A stretch of DNA of 64,000 nt, taken from positions 79,728 to 143,727 of the IMG/VR virus record IMGVR_UViG_3300018080_000003; one strand, written 5' to 3'. Below, in pieces: positions 6,532 to 37,434 of the stretch. Position numbers and translations under genes: made by a program. This stretch comes from a virus. Within the stretch, counting starts at the first letter, position 1. Each line of letters begins with the position of its first letter. The notes beneath the pieces are model-generated. The model was not told where the DNA came from and ran no database searches. It was given only the letters and a program-made list of their open reading frames with translations.

Positions 6532-6921
6532 CTAGAAATTGAAGTCGTAGTACTCGCTGCGCTTGCCGAGCACCACGGTTCCCCCGCGTTGCTTGGTCGG
6601 CGTGCCTACGTGCTTGTAGATGTAGCCCTCGGCGTTCGGCCGCTTGCGGCGCGTGACGACCAGACGCTCACCGTCCGGGTTGCGTTCGTAGCGGTACCGC
6701 TGCGTGCCACTGGTGTGGCCCGCGAAACCTCCCGGACTGAACTGCAGCGCATCGGGCTCTCCCGAGCCATGTCCGTTCAGCAGGATGGCGCGGTCGCGCT
6801 GGAGCACGAGCTTGCGCCCGTTCTCCTTCACCTCGATGACAGTGAATGCCTGGCGATCGCTGTAGCAGTACAGCGTCGCGCCCATGCCGACCTCTGGTCG
6901 GACTTCCGTTTCGGTGTTCAT
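6532..6921 (-). CDS. Hypothetical protein, 129 aa
   Basis: Start fixed by GGAGGACAACAAC before the ATG ending 6921. Predicted all-beta, many basic residues: ATLYCYSDRQAFTVIEV, a GRKLVLQRD strand and a C-terminal GGTVVLGKR. The strand pattern and basic charge suggest a small SH3- or OB-like barrel, which is inference only. Its leader is identical over 70 bases to that of the gene at 9865, on the other strand. Confidence 0.75.
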   Translation of the reverse strand: MNTETEVRPEVGMGATLYCYSDRQAFTVIEVKENGRKLVLQRDRAILLNGHGSGEPDALQFSPGGFAGHTSGTQRYRYERNPDGERLVVTRRKRPNAEGYIYKHVGTPTKQRGGTVVLGKRSEYYDFNF

Positions 6922-6986
6922 GTTGTTGTCCTCCTCTCTAGGCACATGTCGTGCATGTGCCCAGAGACGAGGGCAGCAAGCTGCCC
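6917..6986 (-). repeat. 70-bp inverted leader repeat, left copy
   Basis: Bases 6986 to 6917 read on the minus strand are identical to 9800-9869 on the plus strand. It holds hairpin 1 (GGGCAGCTTGCTGCCC), hairpin 2 (TCTCT-GGGCACATG-loop-CATGTGCC-AGAGA with one mismatch), the ribosome site GGAGGACAACAAC, and ATGAA of the gene. Confidence 0.85.
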
Positions 6987-6992
6987 CGCGGC

Positions 6993-7727
6993 TCAGTGAG
7001 CCGCAATCCAAACCGACTTGGCCCCCGACGCGTTGCCGCGGCAGAGCCCGCAGGTGGCGCACGTAGCGCGACCCGAGACCGCCGGACAAGACACCTCACC
7101 CTTGGCCGGAGCCGCATCGCGGTCCTCGTCAGCCCGGAAGTAGCGCCAGCCCGCGGCCCGCGCCTCGGTCGCATCCGCCGGACTGTCGCAGCTGGCCATG
7201 AGCCATGCCGCAAGCTCCGGGCGCGAACGCCACGAGTGAGTGTAGCCGGTCCAAGAACCCGCCGCGTCGGCCAGCTCCGCTACCAGCTCCACTGGCAGCG
7301 CAGCCGGGTCACCGTACGCCCCAAAGCGAAGCGCCTTACCGCGCAGACGCGACAGCGCCCGAACCTTGTTGGTCCCGCGGCTGTAGGTCGACGCCCACAC
7401 GCTACGTGGCGCCTGAAAGGCGCGCTTGGCGACGTAGCACATGGTGAGACCGTTCTCCCGGGCCACCGAAGGGCGCCGAGGACAGTCGCCGCAGATCGCA
7501 GCGTCCTCGCCCGTTTTGATCGCCTCATGCGGCGCGACGTCGGCAGGAAGGATCCACAGCTGGACCATGTGGCCCGTCTTAGTATTCTTGCTGTCGGCGT
7601 CGAGACCCGTCAGGACCGCGACGATCGGCTCGCCGTTGAGCCGCGACGGTCCGCGCCAGATCACCTCAGACCGAGGCGTCCGCTTTCGGATCACGTCGCG
7701 CTTGGCGCGAATGTTGATCAATTGCAT
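6993..7727 (-). CDS. Cysteine-rich conserved phage protein, 244 aa
   Basis: The start at the ATG ending 7727 follows TGGAGGACAACAAC. CGDCPRR and a later C lie near residues 78-100, then FGAYGDPAALP, GYTHSW, LMASCDSPADA and GWRYFR, and a C-terminal CATCGLCRGN. This ordered set of motifs recurs in a phage family of unknown function; the two CxxC clusters look like a zinc or Fe-S site. Soluble. Own leader and own transcription-unit layout suggest independent expression control. Confidence 0.75.
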   Translation of the reverse strand: MQLINIRAKRDVIRKRTPRSEVIWRGPSRLNGEPIVAVLTGLDADSKNTKTGHMVQLWILPADVAPHEAIKTGEDAAICGDCPRRPSVARENGLTMCYVAKRAFQAPRSVWASTYSRGTNKVRALSRLRGKALRFGAYGDPAALPVELVAELADAAGSWTGYTHSWRSRPELAAWLMASCDSPADATEARAAGWRYFRADEDRDAAPAKGEVSCPAVSGRATCATCGLCRGNASGAKSVWIAAH

Positions 7728-7793
7728 GTTGTTGTCCTCCACTCTGCGCGCATGCGTCACATGCACGCAGAGGGGAGAGCAGCAAAGCTGCCC
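7728..7793 (-). promoter_or_regulatory. Double-hairpin leader, copy L3
   Basis: Hairpin 1 GGGCAGC-TTT-GCTGCTC with a changed loop, hairpin 2 CTCTGCG...CGCAGAG (7742-7772) with CATG-type bases inside, then GGAGGACAACAAC. Different stem sequence but same architecture as the 6917-6986 copy. Confidence 0.6.
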
Positions 7794-9276: not shown

Positions 9277-9342
9277 GGGCAGCTTGCTGCCCTGCTTTCA
9301 GCTCGCATGCCAGACATGCGGGCTGAAAGGAGGACAACAACC
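9277..9342 (+). promoter_or_regulatory. Double-hairpin leader, copy R1
   Basis: Hairpin 1 GGGCAGCTTGCTGCCC (9277-9292); hairpin 2 TTTCAGC-TCGCATG-loop-CATGCGG-GCTGAAA (9296-9328) with loop CCAGA between two CATG-type ends; then GGAGGACAACAACC. Compared with 9800-9864 the stem letters differ but the pairing and CATG-N5-CATG core are kept, which is covariation. Confidence 0.65.
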
Positions 9343-9799: not shown

Positions 9800-9869
9800 G
9801 GGCAGCTTGCTGCCCTCGTCTCTGGGCACATGCACGACATGTGCCTAGAGAGGAGGACAACAACATGAA
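9800..9869 (+). repeat. 70-bp inverted leader repeat, right copy
   Basis: Identical over 70 bases to 6917-6986 on the opposite strand: hairpin 1, hairpin 2 with loop CACGA, GGAGGACAACAAC and the first five coding bases. The genes that follow the two copies encode unrelated proteins, so the leader moved or is maintained independently of the gene. Confidence 0.85.
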
Positions 9870-14031: not shown

Positions 14032-14104
14032 GCCTCGGTTCTTCCCTCGGCTGGGGGACGTCAAGCTCATCCAGGAAGGCAAGAGAGTTGACTCAGACTC
14101 GTAA
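14024..14104 (+). CDS. Microprotein, 26 aa
   Basis: ATG at 14024 overlaps the preceding gene by eight bases, with GAGGACGAGG as ribosome site. Product starts MYEPRFFPRLGDVKLIQ, protein-like in composition. Its TAA is inside the GTAAC site at 14101. Function unknown. Confidence 0.45.
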   Translation: MYEPRFFPRLGDVKLIQEGKRVDSDS

Positions 14105-19264: not shown

Positions 19265-19534
19265 ATGAAGGACATTGCAGACACCAACGCGACCCCCGAG
19301 TGGTACGACGACATCTATCGAGCAGGTGTGCTCGAAAAAGTCTCCACCATCGCCGCTGAGTACGAACTCACGCTCGAAGAGCTGAAGACGATGGCTCCCA
19401 CGCTCTATGGCTACGTCAACGGCTCCCCGAAGTACTACGGCAAGGCGCTCAGGGAGCTGTGCGCCCTCGTCGCCTGCGCCAAGGTACTCAAGCAGGAGCT
19501 TGAAGAGTACGGGCCTCACATCAAAGAGTATTGA
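19265..19534 (+). CDS. Hypothetical protein, 89 aa
   Basis: Starts one base after the previous stop. Helix-rich, TATPEW-like start, EYELTLEELKTMAPTLYGYV and LCALVACAKVLKQELEE. Its stop overlaps the TTGACT box of the next promoter. Function unknown. Confidence 0.7.
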   Translation: MKDIADTNATPEWYDDIYRAGVLEKVSTIAAEYELTLEELKTMAPTLYGYVNGSPKYYGKALRELCALVACAKVLKQELEEYGPHIKEY

Positions 19535-19560
19535 CTTGTTCACGTAACCATGGTTACGTC
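19531..19560 (+). promoter_or_regulatory. Dyad promoter of the hammerhead/tRNA transcript
   Basis: TTGACT (19531-19536), seven bases, then GTAAC-CATG-GTTAC (19544-19557), geometry identical to 14088-14114. A -10 would fall at about 19555-19560 and the start at about 19565, a few bases before the hammerhead core. Confidence 0.6.
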
Positions 19561-19573
19561 TAAAATGCCGCAA

Positions 19574-19629
19574 GGACGAAACGCTCTGCTGCAGAGCGTC
19601 TGAGGGTATGCACCCTCACTGATGAGTCC
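19574..19629 (+). ncRNA. Type II hammerhead ribozyme
   Basis: All core elements are present in type II order. Stem II strand GGAC (19574-19577), GAAA (19578-19581), stem III CGCTCTG/CAGAGCG (19582-19598), U-C cleavage site (19599-19600), stem I TGAGGG/CCCTCA (19601-19606, 19613-19618), CTGATGA (19619-19625), stem II GTCC (19626-19629). A581 can pair with U599 and C600 is the expected H17. Self-cleavage would occur after C19600, leaving a 5'-OH on the downstream RNA that carries tRNA-Arg. Stem II is only 4 bp. Prediction by hand; no activity data. Confidence 0.9.
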
Positions 19630-19828
19630 CGGCTCACGCGACGGAAGCTTTGACCCTCTTCGGAGGCGAGCTGAATCGCGGTCCTGTCTGCTTCTCCGGG
19701 TAGTGGCAGACGAGGGCGACGTGAGGGCGAGAGCATAACTACCTGAGAGCCTTGGTTCCAGCTCTCTCCAGGTGGGCCCAGTAATTGGAACCCTGGGCGC
19801 TGCGTTTAGCTAGCGCGGGCCCAGCTTT
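19630..19828 (+). ncRNA. Structured RNA between hammerhead and tRNA-Arg
   Basis: About 200 nt without an ORF but dense in stems: CTCACG/CGTGAG (19633-19638, 19720-19725), CGCGA/TCGCG, CCTC-TTCG-GAGG, GTCTGC/GCAGAC (19686-19711), GAGAGC/GCTCTC (745-750 with 761-766 of the 19 kb block), and GCCCAG/CTGGGC (19776-19798). The loop GGTTCCA of one hairpin is complementary to TGGAACC in the next, so a kissing interaction is possible. No family recognised; candidate novel RNA. Confidence 0.6.
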
Positions 19829-19900
19829 GCATCTGTCGCTCAGAGGATGAGCAGCGGCCTTCTAAGCCGACCCACGCAGGTTCGAATCCTGCCAGATGCG
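19829..19900 (+). tRNA. tRNA-Arg (UCU)
   Basis: A complete cloverleaf of 72 nt: acceptor GCATCTG/CAGATGC, D-stem GCTC/GAGC, anticodon stem around loop CTTCTAA with U33 and anticodon TCT, T-arm GCAGG-TTCGAAT-CCTGC. CCA is not encoded. It reads AGA/AGG codons, rare in GC-rich hosts. Unlike the trio at 37088, its anticodon arm is normal. Confidence 0.92.
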
Positions 19901-19920
19901 CTCAAGAAAGGGGACCTCAA

Positions 19921-20337
19921 TTGAATCAAGAAGAGCAAGAAGGATGGTGGCTGACCGCTGAACAGTTTGATCCTGTCGACTGTGGCCACGTCGTCCATCC
20001 CTGGAACGGAGAGAGCATCGGAATCCTCTGGGAAGAGAAGGGCGACATCGAGTTCTTCTACAGAGAAGACCTGTCGCGCATCGAGCACTTGCAAGTCGAC
20101 GAACCAACCAAGCTGCTGCGGGCTCTGAAAACCATCATGAAGCTCGGAGGAGAGCACACCTCCGTTCGCATCCACTTCTTCGATCTTCGTCCGCCAAGAG
20201 GAAAAGTCGCAGAGCTGAAAAGCGACGCTGTCAGCAGTCACGTGCGAACGCGTGATGGCAGGAAGGTTTACCAAGATATCGGGCGCGCTGCCGTGCGCTT
20301 CGTCTGCGAAGTCCTTCAGGAGAGAAAGCGTGAGTGA
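19921..20337 (+). CDS. Hypothetical protein, 138 aa, TTG start
   Basis: TTG at 19921 follows AAAGGGGACC, a good ribosome site. WWLTAEQFDPVDCGHVV and a W-x-G-E-x-I-G-I-L strand give a beta-rich N-terminal half; helical end REVLQERKRE. First gene after tRNA-Arg on the same predicted transcript. Function unknown. Confidence 0.7.
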   Translation: MNQEEQEGWWLTAEQFDPVDCGHVVHPWNGESIGILWEEKGDIEFFYREDLSRIEHLQVDEPTKLLRALKTIMKLGGEHTSVRIHFFDLRPPRGKVAELKSDAVSSHVRTRDGRKVYQDIGRAAVRFVCEVLQERKRE

Positions 20338-37354: not shown

Positions 37355-37434
37355 GCGAGAGTAGCTCAGTTTGGCCAGAGCACTAGGAGTAATGCCCCTA
37401 GAGGTCGCAGGTTCGAGTCCTGTCTCTCGCTCCA
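37355..37434 (+). tRNA. tRNA gene with an enlarged anticodon loop
   Basis: One T after the previous CCA. Acceptor GCGAGAG/CTCTCGC with TCCA, D-arm GCTC-AGTTTGGCCA-GAGC, T-arm GCAGG-TTCGAGT-CCTGT. The anticodon stem CTAGG/CCTAG closes a 9-nt loop AGTAATGCC; with an A-C mismatch as a sixth pair the loop is GTAATGC, giving U33 and an AAU anticodon (Ile), but this is uncertain. Confidence 0.65.

Follow-up and report, generated by a model that had tools for sequence, protein, structure and literature searches.

An intact type II hammerhead ribozyme with all core bases present lies at 19567–19633 on the plus strand of the 64,000-nt stretch analyzed here (the window), which covers bases 79,728–143,727 of a 143,727-base IMG/VR record that carries phage replication and tail genes and has a G+C content of 60%. 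Judged on its motif and fold, it is a genuine hammerhead and is probably active. In the reading that we prefer (probability about 0.72), the ribozyme would stand first in a phage leader RNA, cut itself after C19600 and set the fate of the RNA downstream. A type II hammerhead is ordinary in a phage, but one ahead of a tRNA is not. The features of the region are as follows.

19531–19566, plus strand: putative promoter-like leader, by sequence motif (TTGAC, 8 nt, palindrome GTAAC-CATG-GTTAC, then TAAAAT at 19561–19566)
19567–19633, plus strand: type II hammerhead ribozyme, counting the outer GCCG/CGGC extension of stem II (motif, fold, covariance model R1, Rfam, descriptor)
19574–19577, plus strand: stem II 5′ strand GGAC, pairing with GTCC at 19626–19629 (fold and R1)
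19578–19581, plus strand: catalytic core G12 A13 A14 and A15.1, GAAA (sequence)
19581–19599, plus strand: stem III hairpin, 8 bp, loop CTG (fold)
19600, plus strand: C17, after which cleavage is predicted, 19600/19601 (motif position)
19601–19618, plus strand: stem I hairpin, 7 bp, loop ATGC (fold)
19619–19625, plus strand: catalytic core CUGAUGA (sequence and R1)
19634–19828, plus strand: non-coding G+C-rich spacer, 195 nt (ORF listing, folding)
19829–19901, plus strand: tRNA-Arg, anticodon UCU, without encoded CCA (tRNA search, 56.9 bits)
19921–20337, plus strand: ORF of 138 aa with a TTG start and AAGGGGA upstream, function unassigned, first ORF after the tRNA

Structure of the hammerhead

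The elements follow each other in type II order, namely GGAC, GAA, A–stem III–U, the C at the cut, stem I, CUGAUGA and GUCC, and the invariant hammerhead core is complete, with CUGAUGA at 19619–19625, GAAA at 19578–19581 (G12A13A14 at 19578–19580) and UC at 19599–19600 before the cut. The A15.1–U16.1 pair corresponds to A19581–T19599 in stem III. Stem II is formed by G19574–C19577 with G19626–C19629, and is extended outward by GCCG (19567–19570) pairing with CGGC (19630–19633), a CAA bulge lying between the two helices. The MFE and centroid folds of 19565–19648 alone are precisely the hammerhead and, together with the descriptor, give closed stems I and III and an open stem II, whereas stem II is disrupted in the full-length MFE fold. 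The motif position agrees with the product start at 19601, that is, a cut after C19600, that an earlier note on this DNA had predicted.

The pairing of loop I (UAUGCA) with the 3′ tail (CGGCUCACG), a pseudoknot present in most type II hammerheads (PMC3088659), was absent in the 19567–19633 hammerhead, so that cleavage may be slow. Loop I could form 3-bp alternatives with bases on the 5′ side, the best placed being UGC with GCA at 19570–19572, or a weak UGC/GCG pairing.

Statistical support

A loose hammerhead descriptor, requiring the full core and minimal stems, was run on both strands of the whole 143.7-kb record and matched once, compared with no match in 60 first-order Markov genomes of matching length; with the descriptor in all three orders, no type I or type III hammerhead was found in the record. 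The earlier note had also proposed a search with the Rfam type II model. RF02276 (Hammerhead_II) did pick the site as the best of the record (E = 4.3e-4 over the whole record), but at 25.3 bits it fell short of the gathering score of 37, and because of this score phage hammerheads were collected for a model of their own. Type II hammerheads were gathered from viral contigs by pattern, in more than 119 contigs, and covariance model R1 was built from 37 diverse phage type II hammerheads with the window excluded. The R1 alignment covaries, as 98% of its cells are paired vs. 67% in shuffles, and double changes occupy 163 cells vs. 45 in shuffles; GAAA is invariant across the 37 sequences, but the core was part of the pattern used to find them.

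R1 recovered the window ribozyme at full length with 57.5 bits (E = 6.6e-14), in keeping with the covariation pattern of the family, and the runner-up site in the record reached 12.7 bits. The type II hammerhead claimed from the letters alone is thus borne out by R1, by the MFE fold and by the descriptor. Weak Rfam and model matches elsewhere in the record (≤12.9 bits) look like chance and were set aside. When the ribozyme or the surrounding 4 kb was compared by blast with 50,697 phage records, the only matches were to the tRNA or were noise. The only relative, with no diverged one in the collections, is a contig of a second IMG/VR record that is 100% identical over 21 kb, and this identity argues against an assembly error.

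The upstream dyad

The hammerhead lies outside likely genes, 33 nt 3′ of a stop at 19534, and directly 5′ of it is a perfect 18-nt palindrome at 19542–19559 with the dyad ACGTAACCA/TGGTTACGT. The composite TTGAC-N8-GTAAC-N4-GTTAC also precedes the MoxR gene, at 14088, and has two copies in the record vs. none in 100 shuffled genomes, which supports one signal common to the tRNA-side and MoxR operons. The dyad GTAAC-N4-GTTAC alone has four copies in the record vs. a mean of 0 in shuffled genomes, and likely represents a phage operator or promoter family. These copies are located at window positions 635, 14101, 19544 and 28055, at least three of them directly before genes or operons.

The element had been described as a dyad promoter shared with the MoxR operon. 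The shared motif stands, but the promoter-like match TTCACG-16-TAAAAT (19539–19566) occurs no more often than in shuffles, and the dyad motif before the hammerhead may serve as an operator as well as a promoter. If TAAAAT at 19561–19566 is a −10 box, the putative start would fall at about 19573, at the edge of stem II, and the outer GCCG strand would be lost.

Spacer, tRNA-Arg and downstream ORF

The spacer was rejected as coding sequence, its plus strand lacking an ORF of at least 60 aa, and also as a structured ncRNA, the folding of 19601–19828 being no stronger than that of shuffles (z = −1.1). Rfam found no other ribozyme family in it, and no HDV-like fold was matched in a scan of 19450–19960 at E up to 10. 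GTGAGGG at 19721–19727 can pair with CCCTCAC at 19613–19619 after the predicted cleavage; this pairing may help the product to leave the active fold, and is possibly a chance match.

The clean tRNA-Arg(UCU) noticed about 230 nt downstream was confirmed by tRNA search; it begins 228 nt after the predicted cut, on the same strand and with no gene between. In a rough gene set of the phage, AGA and AGG account for 644 of 3625 arginine codons, and therefore this tRNA would have work. The TTG of the first ORF follows the tRNA by 20 nt and is preceded by the Shine-Dalgarno-like AAGGGGA. The earlier description of the ribozyme as heading a tRNA transcript is plausible, given the order, the strand and the lack of an intervening gene, but with this ORF the unit can just as well be called a coding-operon leader. 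No RtcB or AAA_33-type kinase, RNA repair enzymes for 5′-OH ends, was matched in the phage of the window.

Two further observations concern other parts of the window. The tRNA at 37355–37434 was called Ile with anticodon AAT, which is unusual for bacteria. A perfect 70-nt inverted repeat (6917–6986 and 9800–9869, copies 2.8 kb apart) belongs to a family of palindromic elements of about 61 nt, also present at 7725–7785 and 9280–9340.

How unusual the setting is

Since type II hammerheads are common in phages, the window ribozyme is a further case of a known class. Its surroundings were compared with those of 138 structurally sound type II hammerheads from a viral sample, taken with one exact core pattern from among the matches listed. 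Among these 138, 86% had a Shine-Dalgarno sequence plus start within 60 nt, and the median distance to the start codon was 27 nt (middle half 22–34 nt), while the first start codon after the window hammerhead is 292 nt away, outside the usual range. A tRNA within 500 nt, on either strand, accompanied 0 of the 138 type II hammerheads among the matches listed. The word unusual in the earlier note therefore fits the tRNA context; type II hammerheads as such are carried by more than 119 phage contigs. A pattern scan for other type II hammerheads followed at this distance by a tRNA T-loop gave, besides the identical contig, chance matches and a possible type I hammerhead.

Type I hammerheads fused to phage tRNAs

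Targeted scans of phage sequences for joints between type I hammerheads and tRNAs yielded 11 phage cases in which the hammerhead abuts the tRNA, nine of them non-redundant tRNA-Tyr(GUA), one tRNA-His and one tRNA-Gly. The positions of the hammerhead cores in these contigs are as follows.

L209 8399; L213 6483 and 6633; L268 2319; L273 6877, plus strand: cores fused to tRNA-Tyr
L267 3946; L269 4372; L271 5902; L277 2115, minus strand: cores fused to tRNA-Tyr
L265 12316, minus strand: core fused to tRNA-His
L266 10092, minus strand: core fused to tRNA-Gly

In all tRNA-Tyr cases, including the two in tandem in L213, the predicted cut falls exactly before nucleotide 1; in the tRNA-His case it would keep G-1, and in the tRNA-Gly case it leaves one extra U (U-1). 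For L213a, L268 and L271 the tRNA at the cut was not called by ARAGORN, and its acceptor, anticodon and T arms were read by eye. Nucleotides 1–5 of the fused tRNAs supply the 3′ half of stem I, whose 5′ strand covaries with positions 2, 3 and 4 of the acceptor stem. In the jumbo contig L213 the type I/III search form matched twice, each time on a tRNA-Tyr, and the contig also has an RtcB gene. Rfam at its gathering score did not flag the fused hammerheads of L209 and L213, and no description of a hammerhead-fused tRNA was found in the open-access literature, subscription papers and preprints being mostly outside the search. By their arrangement, the fused type I hammerheads look like ribozyme-made tRNA 5′ ends; if they are active, phages would have RNA acting in cis in the role of RNase P. 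The window ribozyme falls outside this class, as its cut is 228 nt upstream of the tRNA and its order is type II.

In bacterial genomes, a strict pattern found no tRNA-fused hammerheads, and a looser one gave mostly chance matches plus one Microbacterium case. This case (Microbacterium sp. oral taxon 186, NZ_KE150458.1) is a plausible type I hammerhead whose predicted cut precedes a tRNA-Leu on the chromosome by 15 nt. Another possible type I hammerhead, on the minus strand at L134:700–970, has a long stem III and lies ahead of a tRNA-Asn(GTT)-like sequence with an insert; both this hammerhead and the unusual tRNA-like sequence were read by eye, and the MFE fold gives them no support.

A same-strand tRNA within 500 nt was found for 16 of 129 type I/III motifs vs. 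6.3 expected (maximum 11 in 200 draws), the expectation being for random positions in the same loci and related contigs being counted separately; on the opposite strand, the count was 0 of 129. These results support a linkage of hammerheads and tRNAs in phages generally, with the window differing in geometry and not belonging to the fused group. Several type I hammerheads, often in tRNA arrays, lie 119–356 nt before a same-strand tRNA (L177, L240, L259, L165, L226, L246, L175 and L173), a spacing that resembles the hammerhead–tRNA distance in the window. Several of these loci have in common a post-cut stretch like CCTTGTGGTGTAGG. At L246:277–830, in a phage tRNA region, a GOLLD RNA (198.6 bits) is followed at 15 nt by a hammerhead core.

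Hammerheads may even be a general phage tool for tRNA transcripts, acting as fused type I and as remote leaders, with the window as the first type II example, but this wider reading is tentative and we hold it to be unlikely. Under it, fused type I hammerheads would take over from RNase P the cut at the mature 5′ end, while a remote leader hammerhead like that of the window would free a tRNA-bearing RNA with a 5′-OH.

Proposed function and alternatives

The reading as a leader ribozyme is in keeping with the usual place of phage type II hammerheads at the head of leaders and with the dyad motif directly upstream here. Against it stand the missing loop I/3′-tail pseudoknot, the disruption of stem II in the full-length MFE fold and the 292 nt to the first start codon. 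We infer that the window ribozyme is transcribed, that it cleaves and that the cut affects RNA fate. The leader RNA would carry the ribozyme first, then the 195-nt spacer, the tRNA-Arg(UCU) and several small ORFs in a row, and the ribozyme would fold during transcription and cut itself after C19600. From a transcript begun at the dyad promoter the cut would remove about 28–36 nt, and from one begun earlier the entire upstream message; it would leave the tRNA/ORF RNA with a 5′-OH and the short piece with a 2′,3′-cyclic phosphate. RNase P would then produce the 5′ end of tRNA-Arg in the ordinary way. By cutting, the ribozyme would probably fix where the downstream RNA begins and how stable it is, and sever it from read-through of the gene ending at 19534.

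A possible alternative, clearly less probable than the leader reading, is that the ribozyme acts mainly on upstream read-through RNA at an operon boundary, where it would separate off the tRNA/ORF unit, the dyad being an operator or a chance promoter. Between the upstream stop and the motif are 33 nt, in which no terminator-like site was reported, and several hammerheads can occur per gene cluster in phages, as seen in the viral contig pattern scan, and have been described per gene cluster in bacteria (PMC3088659); the dyad and TTGAC directly upstream, however, fit a start at the ribozyme.

Service to the tRNA is improbable. The ribozyme would here trim the precursor and free tRNA-Arg faster or without host nucleases, and it does share strand and leader with the tRNA, with no gene between; phages also pair ribozymes with tRNAs elsewhere, as in the HDV-like theta ribozymes (PMC10879173) and the tRNA-abutting type I hammerheads. 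With the cut 228 nt before the tRNA, however, direct maturation is unlikely and RNase P is still needed, a 5′ end of tRNA-Arg made by the ribozyme itself being unsupported at that distance, and none of the 138 type II hammerheads among the matches listed is near a tRNA. Cleavage in the leader or at an operon boundary, with a 5′-OH RNA as its product, is therefore preferred here to direct tRNA maturation.

Less likely still is the joint excision of a stable 228-nt ncRNA (19601–19828, with a 5′-OH) by the ribozyme and RNase P. Both of its ends would be set by RNA enzymes, and GTGAGGG at 19721 offers the 3′ strand of stem I a new partner once the cut has been made, but the spacer folds no better than shuffled sequence (z = −1.1) and has no relative in phage records or Rfam. 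A relic that has lost its catalysis, or two hairpins side by side by chance, is the least likely reading of all; the score below the Rfam gathering level and the lack of the standard pseudoknot would point to it, but the full set of core bases, the perfect stems, no match in 60 shuffled genomes and an E of 6.6e-14 speak against it.

With the leader reading, a ribozyme and a tRNA in one leader provide a concrete and testable setting for the roles of bacterial and phage hammerheads.

Comparison with known systems

The window ribozyme and the described type II hammerheads (RF02276; Perreault et al., 2011, PMC3088659) are alike in order, core and UC cut site, in a stem I of 6–7 bp with a short loop, and in the A before GGAC. 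Natural type II hammerheads are reported to cleave in vitro, and hammerheads of A. tumefaciens to cleave in vivo when expressed in E. coli (PMC3088659). The window differs from them in lacking the loop I/3′-tail pseudoknot, in the four additional base pairs of stem II across the CAA bulge, in a score under the Rfam cut-off, and in being followed by a tRNA instead of lying near a start codon. With the type II hammerheads of phage leaders in IMG/VR it shares the phage genome, the intergenic leader position and the match to R1, whereas, compared with the 138 listed, its start codon is 292 nt off, with a tRNA between.

Like the tRNA-abutting type I cases, the window has a hammerhead upstream of a same-strand phage tRNA; however, type I order, tRNA nucleotides 1–5 within stem I and, for tRNA-Tyr, a cut at the mature 5′ end are features of the fused cases that the window has none of. 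The HDV-like theta ribozymes of gut phages (PMC10879173) likewise tie a self-cleaving ribozyme class to a phage tRNA, but they have an unrelated fold and are proposed to process the 3′-trailers of (suppressor) tRNAs, while the window hammerhead stands at a distance upstream of its tRNA-Arg.
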